Both the position numbers and the translations under genes were made by a program. 23,943 nucleotides of DNA, taken from positions 1 through 23,943 of the IMG/VR virus record IMGVR_UViG_3300046167_000165; one strand, 5' to 3'. This stretch comes from a virus. Positions 16,102 to 23,943 of the stretch are shown here, piece by piece (positions within the stretch are counted from its first letter, which is position 1; each line of letters begins with the position of its first letter). Below the pieces are notes generated by a model that ran no database searches, had not been told where the DNA came from, and was given only the letters and a program-made list of their open reading frames with translations.

Positions 16102-18309
16102 TCAATCAGGAGCTTGATTGCTGAGCTTAGTTGCTCGGCTCAATGCGCCGCCTTGTCGGATACCAAAGTCAAAGAAACGGTTAACGTGCAATGCAATCTG
16201 TGCCGTTGACGCGTTTGAGTATTGGTCAATCAAGATGTCGATGCCGCCAAAGTAAGCCAAGATGCCGCCCTGTTGGAAGTTTCCATAAATCATATTTCCG
16301 CCAACTGTTGAACCTCCCGCAGCTGCGTCAAGTGTTGAGTTGACCAAGTATGGAGTTGCTACGCCACGGTACATATTAAACAGGCCATTTTCCCAAACTG
16401 CATTCACATTAGCAACCTGAGCCAATGTTTTTGAGAATTCGTAAGCTCTTGGACTCATAACATACGCAGCACCTGCAAGGTTTCCACCAGCTGCAAGAAC
16501 AGCGGCCTCCATTTCGTTGGCAACCGCTTGCGTCAAAATTAAATCAGCTGAGTTGACGACATCAACATCAGTCGATGCCATAATAGCGTCAAAAGCGTAG
16601 TCGTCTACATAAGCGTTCATGGCTGCTGCCAACTCGTTAGCAATAAGCGCATCCACCTCTGCACCGCCCTGCAAAATCAATTGCTTGCTGTACTTGGTAT
16701 TAGCTGCAACTCGCTGCGGCGTCAAAGTAACGTCATCCATCTCCAAGCCTGAACCTGCATCGCCTGAAACTTCTGTTTCGTCTGTTCCAACTGCTTTGTT
16801 GCTTACACGTGGAAACTGCAAGTTACCTGTGGCGTTTCGAATTACTGTTGTGCCGAGTCCTTCCAATACGGTAGGGGCGCGCAGTGCTTCGATTGCAGCA
16901 GGTACAACAGTTGGAACGAATCCTGAACCGTCGCCGCTTCCTGCTTGGAAGTCGTCAGCAGCTCCAGCACGCAAAGCCACTGAAGGAATTGCAATCTGTC
17001 CAGCCATCTGTAGTCCTTGGCTTCGTGCCTCCTTGCTTGCCTCACTTGCCCACTCTGCTTCTGCACCTTCCAAGTTTCGGCCGTTTGCAACGGCAGCTAC
17101 TGCACGGCTCAAGCTGAAAGAACTATTAACGCGCTCAACTTCGCGTTGCTCGGATGCGCCAGCTGTTCCGCTCTGCGCCATTCGTGCAACCATGTCCTGC
17201 TCACGTGTTTTGTGCTTGATTTTGACGTCAAGGTCTTGCATCAAGCTGTCAAGCTTATCGCATCGCTCCTGCTCTGCTTCTGTCATAACGCGGCCCTCGC
17301 TGTCCGCCTTTTGGCCGATTGCAACAAACTCTTCATAGTTTGCATTGCGCTGGCCTTTCAAATCGTTTAAAGTCATCTTAGTAATGTTTTGCGTAAAGTT
17401 ACGCGGTTCTGTTTTTATCGTTTCAGGTTCTGCGCGCTTCTCCTCTACGGGTTCGGCTGCTACCTGTTCTTCTTTTAATTCCTCCACTTCCTGCGCCGCC
17501 TCTGCCATGTTTCGCGCGTAGACTGATGCCGTCGGGCTGGCTGGGTATGTAACCGCCGACGTGTCTAATAATTTGCCCACCTTGGTAATTGTTCGCGTGC
17601 TGCGGTCCTCGCTCCACGTATCCGAGTCAATTGTAAAAGCGAACGAGCTTTGTGTAATATCGCCGCGCTTGATAAGCTTGTAAAGATCGCGCCCGTCCTG
17701 CGTGTCGGCAAGTGCTGCACGATACTTTAAACCTTGGTCGTCTACGCTAAGTTCTAACGTGCCGTTCGTAGTTCGTGCCAATGGTGCGCCTGTGTGATTC
17801 AGTAAAAACCTTACATCGTCCTGCATTACGTCATCGAATGCGCCACGTGCTACGGTTTCTTTGAAGTATCCTAAATCATACTCCACATCAAAATTGCTCG
17901 CGTAGCCTTCGACTACCAAAGCATCATCGCCAGCGGCCCGCACTTCTGCCGTGCGTAATTCTACGCTGTCGCCGTATTGGCTGCGCAGTTCTTCCGTGCG
18001 CTTGTCTTCTTCTTCTTTCATTGCTTTAACTTTTGATTCACTCCAATTCAAAGCGGTATCACCGCCCCAAAGTAAATAACTAATTGTGCCGCACGCTTCT
18101 GTATCGTCGGGCTTGTAATATGTTCGGGCGCGGCTCAGAAAGCTGTACATCCTTTTGGTGCGTGCCTCGCTGATTGCTTCTTTGTTTGATAAGATCCGCG
18201 CGGTCTCTTTGCCTACCGCCGTCGCGCATTTTCCGCCTACCTCTTCATTGAGACGCAGGCCGCGCTTCGCGTTGTTTGTCATCGCCTCGGGGTACTTACT
18301 AAACGCCAT
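16102..18309 (-). CDS. Fused prohead protease - major capsid protein (HK97 fold)
   Basis: 735 residues in one frame, three parts. Residues 1-95 form an extra domain (NAKRGLRLNEEVGGKCATAV, EARTKRMYSFLSRARTYY, then GTISYLLWGGDTALNW), a block I recall from other phage structural proteins, function unknown. Residues 118-265 are an S78-type prohead protease: EGYASNF, catalytic His172 in FLLNHTGAP, Ser222 in TQSSFAF. A charged Glu/Lys linker (270-310) leads to the HK97 capsid part: delta-like helices (MTLNDLKGQRN from Met312), then TTVIRNATGNLQFPR and a C-terminal domain ending near RFFDFGIRQGG. An ATG for Met312 at 17376, preceded by an A-rich stretch, could also start capsid protein alone (424 residues, normal size). 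The protease start overlaps the portal end by 11 bases. Confidence 0.92.
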   Translation of the reverse strand: MAFSKYPEAMTNNAKRGLRLNEEVGGKCATAVGKETARILSNKEAISEARTKRMYSFLSRARTYYKPDDTEACGTISYLLWGGDTALNWSESKVKAMKEEEDKRTEELRSQYGDSVELRTAEVRAAGDDALVVEGYASNFDVEYDLGYFKETVARGAFDDVMQDDVRFLLNHTGAPLARTTNGTLELSVDDQGLKYRAALADTQDGRDLYKLIKRGDITQSSFAFTIDSDTWSEDRSTRTITKVGKLLDTSAVTYPASPTASVYARNMAEAAQEVEELKEEQVAAEPVEEKRAEPETIKTEPRNFTQNITKMTLNDLKGQRNANYEEFVAIGQKADSEGRVMTEAEQERCDKLDSLMQDLDVKIKHKTREQDMVARMAQSGTAGASEQREVERVNSSFSLSRAVAAVANGRNLEGAEAEWASEASKEARSQGLQMAGQIAIPSVALRAGAADDFQAGSGDGSGFVPTVVPAAIEALRAPTVLEGLGTTVIRNATGNLQFPRVSNKAVGTDETEVSGDAGSGLEMDDVTLTPQRVAANTKYSKQLILQGGAEVDALIANELAAAMNAYVDDYAFDAIMASTDVDVVNSADLILTQAVANEMEAAVLAAGGNLAGAAYVMSPRAYEFSKTLAQVANVNAVWENGLFNMYRGVATPYLVNSTLDAAAGGSTVGGNMIYGNFQQGGILAYFGGIDILIDQYSNASTAQIALHVNRFFDFGIRQGGALSRATKLSNQAPD

Positions 18310-18844
18310 CGCTCGAAACTTTATCGGAATACGCGCCTAGCTTATCCAGTGCGATTTGATTAACCTGCACCGTGTGCGTGTCGCCTCCGTCCGTTGGGTT
18401 CATATCTTCCTTGCCCCTGACTTCGTTAATACTTAGCACGCCGTTGTTTAGCATCTTAGTATAAAAGTCTGCGCGGCTTTGCATATCGCCTCGGTACAAA
18501 TCGTTGAGGTTAAACTTGCTGTATATCTGTGGGCGCTCACGTGACTGGATTAGCTTTCTGTCTATCTCCTGCTCGATGCGCTTGGCCCAAGGTGCAATCG
18601 TGTGCCGTGCAAATTGTAGGTTTTGCTGTTCAACATTGTTGTATGTTGTTTGGCTTTCTAGCTGTACCAACGTAGGCGGCACGCTAAAAATGCGGCATAT
18701 CTCTTCAGCCTGAAATTTGCGCGTTTCAATGAACTGCGCTTCGTCGGGGCTGATGCTTATACGCGAATACTTAAAGCCAAACGGTAGCAACTTAGTGCCT
18801 GCTTGCTGTGCGGCCTTGTTCCAACTGCCTTGGATTATATCCAT
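18299..18844 (-). CDS. Portal protein, C-terminal part after a frameshift
   Basis: Carries the C-terminal half of an HK97-type portal: SWNKAAQQAGTKLLPFGFKY, ETRKFQAEEICRIFSVPPTL, then NNVEQQNLQFARHTIAPWAK, all standard stem/wing/clip blocks of the family. The listed start (MDIIQGSW) is an internal Met, not a real start. In the intact protein the sequence continues from the 233-aa part as ...LKK-EQMDIIQGSW. One extra base at 18850-18851 (GG for G on the minus strand, in AAAGGAGC) separates the two. Joined length is 397 residues, normal for this family. Confidence 0.85.
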   Translation of the reverse strand: MDIIQGSWNKAAQQAGTKLLPFGFKYSRISISPDEAQFIETRKFQAEEICRIFSVPPTLVQLESQTTYNNVEQQNLQFARHTIAPWAKRIEQEIDRKLIQSRERPQIYSKFNLNDLYRGDMQSRADFYTKMLNNGVLSINEVRGKEDMNPTDGGDTHTVQVNQIALDKLGAYSDKVSSDGV

Positions 18845-19493
18845 CTGCTCCTTTCTTCAAAGGCTGATCGCTGGATAGTATCCCCGTCATTTGCCCGCCG
18901 CTGCCAAAGTATTCAGCGCCAAAGTCCTCGGCGCTTTTGGCTAGTCCTAAATTCTCACGGTGCAAGCGTATCGGTGACTTTCTTTGTAGGTTGCAAATCT
19001 CCAGCATATTCTCAGGCTGAACAATGCCCACATTGCGCACGCTGTAAACTATCTGCCCGTTGACGTTTTTGCGGTCTACGTCGTATATGTCCAAACAAAC
19101 AAGGCTAGTAACATAGCCACGTCCGTCGCGCTCAATCAGTGCATAGCCAACGCCGTTAATGACTGCATTACTTATAACGGTCTCCCAAAAGTCAAACGCC
19201 GTTTGATATTCGTTAGGCTTGTATTTTATAACGTCATAGGCTGGATGCACATTCGCGGGTTCTATCTCGCGGCCTGTGCGCTCATATACCTCAAGATCTA
19301 AACTCGCCAAAGTGCTGGCGATCTTATAGACGCAGGCGTAAACCGTCGAGATTGTAAGCGCGGTATTCTCGTTGATATTCGCACCGCTTACCGTAGTGCC
19401 GTAAATACCTAAGTCGTTCGCCAAGGTCTGAGAATCGTACTTGCCTACGCGATACCTCAAAAGCGCGTTTAATCTGTCGCGAAGTGTTGCCAT
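18792..19493 (-). CDS. Portal protein, N-terminal part (frame broken)
   Basis: The first ~213 residues belong to an HK97-type portal: ENTALTISTVYACVYKIAST, LASLDLEVYERTGRE, ...KPNEYQTAFDFWETVISNAV..., and the LVCLDIYDVDRKNV region. The tail of this frame (after LSSDQPLKK: GADGYNPRQLEQGRTASRH) is out-of-frame readthrough caused by the one-base insertion at 18850-18851. The portal is the dodecameric channel for DNA entry and the docking site of the terminase. The start ATG 19493 lies 15 bases after the terminase stop. Confidence 0.85.
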   Translation of the reverse strand: MATLRDRLNALLRYRVGKYDSQTLANDLGIYGTTVSGANINENTALTISTVYACVYKIASTLASLDLEVYERTGREIEPANVHPAYDVIKYKPNEYQTAFDFWETVISNAVINGVGYALIERDGRGYVTSLVCLDIYDVDRKNVNGQIVYSVRNVGIVQPENMLEICNLQRKSPIRLHRENLGLAKSAEDFGAEYFGSGGQMTGILSSDQPLKKGADGYNPRQLEQGRTASRH

Positions 19494-21657: not shown

Positions 21658-21939
21658 CTACCCCTCGTGCGCTTCTCGCCCTGACTTGGAGGCATGGCAG
21701 GGTGTGCAAAGGCTTTGCCAGTTGCTTACATCGAAGAACTCAGCACCCTGCCGCACAGGCACAACGTGATCTACCACGTTGGCAGGTCCGCCGCACCCAG
21801 TGCATTCGGGGTTAGTCTTTAGGAATGCCAGCCGACTCTTACGCCATGCGTTGGTCCAGTATCTGCGATCTTGTGGCGTGTCTCGCTTACGTCCTTTGCG
21901 CCTCGGATCGGGCGTCTGCTTACGTGGTATCGTAGGCAT
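21658..21939 (-). CDS. HNH endonuclease adjacent to terminase
   Basis: 93 residues. A zinc-ribbon HNH motif is visible: CTGCG (Cys46, Cys49), VVDHVVPVRQG with Asp57-His58, the NWQSLCTPCH segment (Asn73, Cys78, Cys81, His82) and a basic N-terminus (TPDPRRKGRKRD). Small HNH proteins encoded next to the terminase are required for specific cos cleavage in HK97-like phages (established for that group), so this one likely works with TerL. Its ATG overlaps the stop of the tiny gene upstream as TAATG. A gap of 98 bases separates it from TerS. Confidence 0.88.
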   Translation of the reverse strand: MPTIPRKQTPDPRRKGRKRDTPQDRRYWTNAWRKSRLAFLKTNPECTGCGGPANVVDHVVPVRQGAEFFDVSNWQSLCTPCHASKSGREAHEG

Positions 21940-22049
21940 TACTGATAGTAATAACCGTGGTGCTTGGTCAGGTGGTAAATTTCATGGCTGATACGCTTGA
22001 ACCTTTCCCATCTTGATCCATAGTTTAACGCTTTGATATTGCTCACCAT
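21939..22049 (-). CDS. Tiny basic protein, 36 aa, coupled to the HNH gene
   Basis: ATG 22049 to TAA 21939, 36 residues (MVSNIKALNYGSRWERFKRI... ending HHGYYYQ). GTG at 22055 or TTG at 22064 could extend it by a few residues; the same frame further upstream lies inside NinG and is not believed. It fills the gap between NinG (stop 22090) and the HNH gene, and its TAA overlaps the HNH ATG (TAATG). It is basic and rich in Tyr and His, with no recognised family. Evidence is position and coupling, so confidence is moderate. Confidence 0.5.
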   Translation of the reverse strand: MVSNIKALNYGSRWERFKRISHEIYHLTKHHGYYYQ

Positions 22050-22089
22050 GCTCACATCTAGCAACTCATTGCGCTCCGCTCTTAGCTTA

Positions 22090-22527
22090 TCATACCTTCG
22101 CCTTTGCTTTTGGCTTAGGCATAACGTCTTTCCGCTCTGCGTACTTGAGCGCCTCGGTCCTATGATACTCGAATAGGTGCTGAAGCTCCTGTATCTTGAA
22201 CTTTCTACCTTCGTCCGCTTGTTGCATAAGCTGCGCAGTTCGTCCTCTGTTTTCGCTTTCAATACGGCAGCCAAAAATCCATTGTTCTCCTTGGTTGTGA
22301 ATATTGCAGGCAAAGCATTGCGGCTTAACGTTAGCTTCTTCCCACCGAGTAGCCATGTGCCTTCGGCTGAGAAAATGCCCTGCATGGATCTTAGATGCGT
22401 GATGGACTCGGTTGCAGGTGTAACACGTACAGTTTCCGCGTAGATCTGCCGCTTTCCATCTGATGTGCTTGCTGAACCACTCATCGACCTTCTTCTTTAG
22501 TTGTGCGTGTGTCTGCTTCTTTGCCAT
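22090..22527 (-). CDS. ninG: NinG-like recombination protein
   Basis: 145 residues. NinG (lambda Rap) features: a helical start (MAKKQTHAQLKKKVDEWFSK), a C-x2-C knuckle (CTCYTC, Cys35-x2-Cys38), the IHAGHFLSRRHMATRWEEAN block with His48 and His51, and CFACNIHNQGE (Cys71, Cys74). These residues form the HNH-like zinc site of this Holliday-junction/branched-DNA nuclease family. The basic C-terminus (MPKPKAKAKV) is likely a DNA-binding tail. It starts 47 bases inside the preceding gene. It resolves recombination intermediates during phage replication, and could pair with the early annealing/SSB-like proteins. Confidence 0.88.
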   Translation of the reverse strand: MAKKQTHAQLKKKVDEWFSKHIRWKAADLRGNCTCYTCNRVHHASKIHAGHFLSRRHMATRWEEANVKPQCFACNIHNQGEQWIFGCRIESENRGRTAQLMQQADEGRKFKIQELQHLFEYHRTEALKYAERKDVMPKPKAKAKV

Positions 22528-22867
22528 TGCCGTTAATTGCTTGGCTAATGTAGTCCTTTAACATTTCGCGCTCACGCTTACGGCTTTTGTATTCATCGGA
22601 CTGCTGTACCCTGTGCCAGTTCGCCCGTAGTTTCCGCCTGTATGCCTCGCGTTGCTCTCCGTAATGTTTGTTGCACATATCCCAAAAGTCCTCGTTATAT
22701 CGTGAAACATCAGGGTGCGCTGTGAACGTGCCGCTGTTGTTTATAAAATACTCCTTTTCCAAGTGGTGCGGCCTGTAACGGCTTGCACATTCCGCGCCGT
22801 AAACTTCTGTGATGGCGTAGCGGCGTGAGTCCATCAGGTCAAGCCAAAATTGCTCAATCGGTGTCAT
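22481..22867 (-). CDS. Unknown protein between methyltransferase and NinG
   Basis: 128 residues, start overlapping the methyltransferase stop by 14 bases and end overlapping NinG by 47. No family is recognised. It is soluble and rich in aromatic and charged residues; the C-terminal half is one long basic helix (QREAYRRKLRANWHRVQQSD, then EYKSRKREREMLKDYI), which could bind nucleic acid. The N-terminal half has a conserved-looking MTPIEQFWLDLMDSRR opening. Position among DNA-modification and recombination genes suggests DNA metabolism, with no firmer evidence. Confidence 0.68.
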   Translation of the reverse strand: MTPIEQFWLDLMDSRRYAITEVYGAECASRYRPHHLEKEYFINNSGTFTAHPDVSRYNEDFWDMCNKHYGEQREAYRRKLRANWHRVQQSDEYKSRKREREMLKDYISQAINGNGKEADTRTTKEEGR

Positions 22868-23828
22868 TTTCGTAATCGTTTATGCTTTGAAATATGCGGT
22901 GCGCCACTTGCGGTACTATAGCGTTTCCGTATGCTTTAATAGATTCTCTTCTCCACTTTGAAAAGGTAATGCCGTCCAGTTCTTTGGGAAGCCCATCATC
23001 TCCTCCACAAATAGGGGGGACAGTTGGGAAGTTTTCCCACCGATTTTGAATTGACTTGCTTCCTCGTCTGAAAGATTCCCCTTTCCCCTGTCGATTGATG
23101 CGTTCGCCCTTTCTGCTTGTGCTGTCGGTGTCGGGAGCATTTGTGGAACGTGTTGGGCCATGCTTGACAGATTCGGCATCGAGTTGGTTGTTCTGTCTCC
23201 GTTGCGCTTCGCAAAGTTCTCCGGAGTCTCCACAAACTCGACCGCCCTTGGTGTCGGAAGCATTCCCGTTTCCTTCAATGCCGTGAACATCGACTTTCCT
23301 CCCTGCTTGAAGTCGCTCTTTCTGCCCGTCTCCGTTGTGATTGTGGGCAACAATCCAGACTCTGTCGCGTCGGTGCGGCGCATTGCCTGCGGCACAAGCT
23401 GGAATAATAAACGATTGGACGGAGTACCCAAGATTTTCCAAGTCAGAGTAACACGTTTCGAGTACCAATCCGTCCGACCAACTAACAAGCCCGCGAACGT
23501 TCTCGCCCACGACCCAACGGGGTTGACACTCTCCGATAACTCTAAGCATCTCCGGCCACAGGTGGCGCGAGTCTTCTGTTCCTTTTCGTTGTCCTGCAAC
23601 GCTAAACGGTTGACAGGGGAATCCTCCGCTAAGAACGTCAATTCGTCCATTATAGTCAGTTGCGTCAAAGTCTTTGATGTCTTCATATTGTTTGGCATTT
23701 GGGAAATGATGTTTTAACACTTTTCGCGGAAATTCCTCCCACTCACAATTAAACAGGTTTTCCCATCCTGACCATTCAGCAGCTAAATCAAAGCCGCCAA
23801 TGCCTGAGAATAGACTGCCGTGCGTCAT
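22854..23828 (-). CDS. dcm: DNA C5-cytosine methyltransferase
   Basis: 324 residues from ATG 23828; the upstream TTG at 23903 only adds non-conserved residues and overlaps another gene. Motifs in order: I LFSGIGGFDLA (6-16), IV SGGFPCQPFS with catalytic Cys72, VI GENVRGL (108-114), VIII HRRDRVWIVA (152-161), and X AYGNAIVPQVA near the C-terminus. The target-recognition part between VIII and X is short and low in complexity. It methylates C5 of cytosine within a short unread target, probably to protect phage DNA from restriction; no partner endonuclease is seen here. The ATG overlaps the stop of the upstream gene (AATGA). A second long frame overlaps its centre. Confidence 0.93.
   Translation of the reverse strand: MTHGSLFSGIGGFDLAAEWSGWENLFNCEWEEFPRKVLKHHFPNAKQYEDIKDFDATDYNGRIDVLSGGFPCQPFSVAGQRKGTEDSRHLWPEMLRVIGECQPRWVVGENVRGLVSWSDGLVLETCYSDLENLGYSVQSFIIPACAAGNAPHRRDRVWIVAHNHNGDGQKERLQAGRKVDVHGIEGNGNASDTKGGRVCGDSGELCEAQRRQNNQLDAESVKHGPTRSTNAPDTDSTSRKGERINRQGKGESFRRGSKSIQNRWENFPTVPPICGGDDGLPKELDGITFSKWRRESIKAYGNAIVPQVAHRIFQSINDYENDTD
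22916..23698 (-). CDS. Long out-of-phase ORF overlapping the methyltransferase (possible overprinted gene)
   Basis: 260 codons open on the same strand in another frame, wholly inside the methyltransferase. It begins MPNNMKTSKTLTQLTIMDEL and contains NPVGSWARTFAGLLVGRTDW, three LPT motifs (LLPTITT, MLPTPRA, MLPTPTA) and an ending LSPLFVEEMMGFPKNWTALP. I recall similar sequences annotated as separate phage proteins in Bacteroidota, but they could be shadow translations of the same methyltransferase family. In the main frame these LPT units correspond to low-complexity NAPDTDS-type residues of the recognition region. Translation is unproven, and no clear ribosome site was seen. Confidence 0.35.
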   Translation of the reverse strand: MPNNMKTSKTLTQLTIMDELTFLAEDSPVNRLALQDNEKEQKTRATCGRRCLELSESVNPVGSWARTFAGLLVGRTDWYSKRVTLTWKILGTPSNRLLFQLVPQAMRRTDATESGLLPTITTETGRKSDFKQGGKSMFTALKETGMLPTPRAVEFVETPENFAKRNGDRTTNSMPNLSSMAQHVPQMLPTPTAQAERANASIDRGKGNLSDEEASQFKIGGKTSQLSPLFVEEMMGFPKNWTALPFQSGEENLLKHTETL

Positions 23829-23943
23829 TTGTTGCTTTGCTTCTGTCGGTTCTTCATCTCCTCGCGCTCTGTGTACGTTAAGCGGTCCTCTCCTGCCATC
23901 CAATCGGCTGGGTGCACCCTTGACGCCACAGGGTTAACTTGAG
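23825..23943 (-). CDS. C-terminal end of a gene entering from the right edge
   Basis: A frame open from the window edge codes for the last 38 residues of a protein (QVNPVASRVHPADWMAGEDR, then a charged helix rich in Glu, Lys and Gln) and ends in TGA at 23825, overlapping the methyltransferase ATG (AATGA). It explains why the methyltransferase should start at 23828 and not at the TTG in 23903. An internal ATG would give a 24-residue peptide, but the in-frame upstream residues look equally protein-like. Function unknown. Confidence 0.6.
   Translation of the reverse strand, partial: QVNPVASRVHPADWMAGEDRLTYTEREEMKNRQKQSNK

Follow-up and report, generated by a model that had tools for sequence, protein, structure and literature searches.

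The C5-cytosine methyltransferase gene (alpha) near the right end of the analysed DNA, a stretch of 23,943 nucleotides from a viral metagenome record (hereafter the window), holds a second gene nested in its +1 frame. On the basis of sequence comparison and structure prediction, we put at about 90% the probability that this second frame, ORF2, encodes the beta subunit, i.e. recognition plus motif IX, of a two-polypeptide C5-cytosine DNA methyltransferase of the M.EcoHK31I kind. According to this proposal, alpha, in the main frame, would supply the SAM-binding and catalytic domain with motifs I–VIII, plus the C-terminal motif X. Beta would have its own start codon and be read in +1 from the mRNA that also encodes alpha, and it would supply what alpha is without, namely motif IX (LSPLFVEEMMGFP) and, most likely, the target-recognition (LPT) region. 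Together, the two chains would form a single site-specific methyltransferase acting on the phage DNA, plausibly as a defence against host restriction.

Layout of the two frames

The features discussed below are all on the minus strand, and their positions in the window are the following:

22854..23828 (-): alpha, C5-cytosine methyltransferase, 324 aa from ATG 23828, near the right end of the window
22916..23698 (-): beta (ORF2), 260 codons from ATG to stop, in the +1 frame of alpha and fully nested
23650..23698 (-): candidate beta start codons, ATG 23698, 23686 and 23650, in-frame ATGs common to close relatives
23387..23449 (-): predicted hairpin of beta (LTWK...LLFQLVP), strands 84-91 and 97-104, block pLDDT 71-89
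23346..23378 (-): alpha motif VIII (PHRRDRVWIVA), just past which alpha no longer matches ordinary MTases in profile or structure
23126..23350 (-): LPT units of beta, proposed target-recognition region, unit number variable among relatives
23339-23350, 23249-23260 and 23126-23137 (-): the individual beta LPT units, LPTI, LPTP and LPTP
23010..23345 (-): stretch joining motifs VIII and X of alpha (the linker), disordered and free to vary in alpha, with the beta frame conserved
22973..23023 (-): motif IX of beta (LSPLFVEEMMGFPKNWT)
22908..22946 (-): alpha motif X (ESIKAYGNAIVPQ)

A TTG at 23903, upstream of ATG 23828, also opens the alpha frame. The initial annotation had described a 260-codon second frame within the methyltransferase, with three LPT units and a closing block, and both descriptions hold: the frame spans 22916-23698 on the minus strand, in +1 relative to the C5-MTase frame, and has LPT units at beta residues 117, 147 and 188 and the closing block LSPLFVEEMMGFPKNWTALP at residues 226-245. 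Its remark that the main frame is low in complexity here was also correct, alpha residues 168–286 being without confident predicted structure.

The record is a metagenomic fragment whose head genes comprise a portal, a terminase large subunit and a fused head protease/major head protein. The portal is found in two overlapping ORFs, 18299-18844 and 18792-19493 (-), which match successive parts of phrog_12; this split is a frameshift in the record, i.e. a sequencing error or a broken gene. The head maturation protease and the major head protein are apparently fused in a 735-codon ORF at 16102-18309 (-). Another overlap is seen at 22090-22527 (-), where an ORF for a NinG/Rap-like endonuclease (phrog_5034, E=3e-18) overlaps, in another frame, a 181-codon ORF at 21939-22484 (-) that has no PHROG match. 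This overlap could be due to chance or to a second overlapping gene.

Openness, conservation and selection of the second frame

The longest open stretch in the +1 frame of alpha is 265 codons. Permutation of the synonymous codons of alpha gives a mean open +1 stretch of 129 codons and P = 0.002 for the observed one, and when codons are resampled from the other long genes of the window, none of 5000 trials is as long (the maximum is 245). In four more of the window's long genes, the +1 stretches are at most 36–97 codons. The length is thus unlikely to have arisen by chance, as had been supposed from the letters alone.

Searches with ORF2 found relatives in phages, plasmids, viral contigs and bacterial genomes. 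In all of the 241 loci anchored on ORF2, it overlaps a C5-MTase frame in +1, with complete nesting in 228, and no ORF2 relative without an MTase was found among them. Since this set had been gathered with ORF2, the search was repeated with alpha as the anchor. Here, an open +1 frame with the closing motif is retained at 77 of the 78 usable loci, and the single exception is a locus cut by a contig end, which answers the question raised in the initial annotation of how often related genes retain the frame. The median open length in these MTase-anchored genes is 270 codons for the +1 frame versus 61 for the +2 frame. As a control, the C5 MTases of 20 host genomes were considered: the +1 stretches of 14 non-nested ones, which include a nested-type alpha cut by a contig end (L361) that is no ordinary gene, have a median of 63 codons (range 37-106), compared to 257 codons for the 15 nested ones of the same genomes.

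The same layout is found in phages of E. coli, Vibrio, Pseudomonas, Mycobacterium and cyanobacteria, and in a Leptospira plasmid; in L007, where ORF2 is likewise +1 and nested, an unrelated downstream ORF is in +2. The methylase of Mycobacterium phage Hades (L323) carries the nested beta frame. In five loci (L009, L031, L213, L231 and L232) the linker has stops in the alpha frame, the beta frame is open, and motif X follows downstream in the alpha frame; these interrupted alphas are either decayed genes or sequence errors. Most of the examined records annotate alpha alone, or call the nested gene 'hypothetical' or plain 'methyltransferase', and it follows that alpha expressed alone would likely be an inactive enzyme.

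The 4-fold degenerate sites of alpha were compared pairwise across 47 distinct alphas. Outside the overlap, they differ in 0.60 (5') and 0.64 (3') of the comparisons, values that, like those below, are effect sizes without P values, the alpha pairs being non-independent. In the successive zones of the overlap the difference is 0.37, 0.28 (motifs IV–VIII), 0.13 (linker) and 0.10 (motif IX/closing block), and it goes back up to 0.41 in the tail coding for motif X. The synonymous variation of the main frame, which had been named as a check on the second frame, is accordingly roughly 2- to 6-fold lower inside the overlap. In the linker, alpha amino acids differ in 66% of the pairs, as compared to 13% for the 4-fold sites. 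A variable alpha protein with nearly fixed synonymous sites is the mark of a region where the beta frame dictates the sequence, as it appears to do in the linker. The positions of the substitutions agree with this: 74% (5') and 59% (3') of those outside the overlap are at position 3 of alpha codons, and in the linker and motif IX they fall most often on alpha position 1, that is, the wobble position of beta. The division of labour between the frames is in this way seen codon by codon, and the substitution patterns show both frames to be under selection. Of a true overprinted gene and a sequence constrained by two frames, the two options considered earlier, both find support in the retention of the frame and the reduced synonymous variation. 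Neither of the outcomes that the initial annotation had named as refuting the gene, frequent stops in the homologues or unreduced synonymous variation, was observed.

These results bear directly on the possibility that the codon usage or composition of alpha opens the frame as a by-product, with no gene there at all. It is true that the +1 frame of alpha is more open than average even after synonymous permutation, but the permutation P value stands against this explanation already in the window alone, as do the frame's retention across hundreds of loci, the reduced synonymous variation and the Shine–Dalgarno (SD) sites described below. An artefact of chance or codon usage is ruled out by the first three of these, and the by-product explanation, to which we attach practically no weight, is refuted by the comparative data. 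We thus take the ORF2 frame to be a real gene, as judged from its sequence and that of its relatives.

Complementary contents of alpha and beta

Alpha matches PF00145 with E=2.9e-45, and only over residues 2-174, where the catalytic domain with motifs I–VIII is present; it also matches phrog_363. Its model consists of an M.HhaI-like domain that is predicted with confidence as far as motif VIII (residues 1-173 have the M.HhaI catalytic fold, with a structure match of E=2e-15), a stretch with pLDDT below 50 at residues 168-286, disordered in the model, and a confident helix pair at motif X. No motif IX was found in alpha by motif scoring and pattern search, its best segment scoring 7.7, and the predicted structure contains no folded recognition domain. 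A monomeric-type C5 MTase carries motifs I–VIII, motif IX and the recognition domain on a single chain, and this is not the case for alpha.

ORF2, on the other side, matches phrog_1008 (E=1.1e-25, residues 12-249). Neither ORF2 nor its profile matched Pfam, NCBIfam or PDB sequences, profile-profile comparison with the alpha alignments indicated no relation, and no profile match to solved MTases was obtained by sequence. When beta alone is modelled in AlphaFold, the mean pLDDT is 58.7, and a Foldseek search of the PDB with this model gave nothing significant. Because of this low confidence and the Foldseek outcome, no fold is argued for from the model. Its most confident parts are the hairpin, with the conserved columns L85, W87, F99 and L101, and motif IX.

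The assignment of motif IX relies on three observations. Firstly, the closing block of ORF2 is the best motif-IX segment in 148 of 165 ORF2 proteins, and that of the window scores 14.2, compared to 6.5 for the next segment in ORF2. Secondly, in the control genomes, MTases whose own frame has a clear motif IX show a short +1 frame and never the block in +1, and where LNPxFVxEMMGFP is present in +1 the MTase frame itself is always without motif IX, as scored with a regular expression that overlooked this motif in a number of ordinary MTases. Thirdly, in 16 relatives (L217, L364, L365 and others), several of which are near-duplicates, the ORF2 frame runs from the LPT region through an LNPDWVEWLMG block to motif X in one polypeptide, and this continuity makes the block motif IX by position. 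No monomeric relative with motif IV and an LNPxWVEWLMGFP block in one ORF was found among the relatives searched. From these comparisons, we identify the closing block of ORF2 as motif IX.

The finding also speaks to the option that ORF2 is an unrelated accessory protein, such as a restriction inhibitor, overprinted by accident in an MTase gene. Small accessory proteins are frequent in phages and ORF2 has no Pfam family, but such a protein would not be expected to accompany an MTase in every relative found, to contain exactly the motif that alpha lacks, and to be continuous with motif X in the 16 relatives. We consider this option highly improbable. Holding the motif IX that its host gene lacks, ORF2 is instead predicted to be half of the same enzyme.

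The location of target recognition is a separate issue. In the 16 relatives mentioned above, alpha ends about 10-31 residues past motif VIII in those in which this motif could be placed, and 7-35 stops follow in the alpha frame beyond its end. The alpha linker is thus dispensable, and recognition is therefore placed in beta, where the LPT region is most likely the target-recognition region. These relatives also suggest how split layouts can interconvert. The alternative is that beta provides only motif IX and that recognition stays in the alpha linker, in line with the predicted target-recognition domain (TRD) of M.EcoHK31I, which was placed in the larger subunit, with only motif IX in the smaller one (PMC3404938). 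However, the linker is disordered in the model, the alpha protein varies freely there at the same time as the ORF2 frame is conserved, and the linker is absent in the relatives with a short alpha, which makes recognition by alpha unlikely in our judgement. With recognition in beta, the varying number of LPTP-like units (1-7 per beta in 169 dereplicated relatives) may possibly reflect a modular specificity region.

We now consider how beta would be made. In SD-using hosts, the first ATG/GTG of beta has an SD match of at least 4 nt in 86% of the loci and of at least 5 nt in 57%, against a background of 22% and 5%, respectively, for the remaining ATGs of these alphas. No SD was found at the beta start in the viral and Bacteroidota set, which includes the window's own Bacteroidota-like group, and for this reason the start in the window (23698, 23686 or 23650) is not fixed. 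A programmed ribosomal frameshift could in principle fuse the catalytic half of alpha to the ORF2 half, in addition to alpha itself, and a +1 shift beyond motif VIII would indeed give one chain with motifs I–VIII, the LPT region and motif IX. Upstream of motif VIII, however, ORF2 is already open and constrained, with the alpha 4-fold variation at 0.28-0.37, and the SD matches in SD-using loci are those of a gene with a start of its own. The constraint upstream of motif VIII makes independent initiation the better supported of the two, and frameshifting very unlikely.

Breadth of the layout and comparison with known systems

Few gene overlaps in bacteria and phages go as far as the full nesting of two parts of one enzyme. 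To our knowledge, complete nesting of two enzyme parts in two frames is known from very few cases, and the textbook examples of two-polypeptide C5 MTases are M.EcoHK31I and M.AquI. Here, the nested layout is conserved over hundreds of loci in Bacteroidota, Bacillota, Pseudomonadota and several phage groups, so the arrangement, rare but known, has a far wider spread than those two cases suggest. A tentative extension, somewhat doubtful at present, is that of a large and ancient family of nested two-subunit C5 MTases in many phyla and phages, with the recognition subunit always in +1 and the LPTP count as modular specificity. If true, a change in the number of LPTP units would change the target, or give several targets, with the conserved protein parts of alpha untouched.

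No paper on the nested family in phages was found in the open literature searched. A separate out-of-frame HNH insertion in the DNA methylase of mycobacteriophage ShiLan, other than the nested beta frame, is described in PMC11855218, and the nested frame is not mentioned in the available portion of that text. As far as the searched literature goes, what is new here is the breadth, the zone-by-zone selection in two frames and an intermediate layout in which beta holds motif X.

Among annotated entries, PHROG 1008, 'DNA methyltransferase', includes ORF2, but its label is silent on a nested second subunit without catalytic motifs. In Escherichia phage K1G, ORF30 ('Mte8-like protein') is nested in +1 in ORF31 ('C-specific methylase') and both are annotated, as in the layout discussed here; however, the sequence is distant and the record gives ORF30 no function. 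Alpha residues 1-173 share the catalytic fold of M.HhaI, but the monomers M.HhaI and M.HaeIII both keep the TRD and motif IX in that same chain.

The closest parallel is M.EcoHK31I, whose small gene lies inside the large one in a different frame and which belongs to a restriction-modification system recognising YGGCCR; M.EaeI is a two-polypeptide C5 methyltransferase of the same sort. No cognate endonuclease was recognised among the ten window genes scanned, the window ending 40 bases past TTG 23903. The large subunit of M.EcoHK31I has motifs I–VIII and X, motif IX is in the small polypeptide, and the predicted TRD has been assigned to the larger subunit (PMC3404938). Compared with M.EcoHK31I, the window agrees in the nesting of the smaller gene in a different frame, in an alpha with motifs I–VIII and X and without IX, and in a motif IX assigned to the smaller polypeptide; it differs in that the evidence here points to beta for the TRD. 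M.AquI also consists of two polypeptides, and its small subunit has the distal recognition region and motifs IX-X (PMC3404938). Unlike in that enzyme, motif X of the window is in alpha and beta is wholly nested, so that IX and X are not together in the small chain; the likeness lies in the two polypeptides and in the 16 relatives that, as in M.AquI, have motif X in the beta frame.
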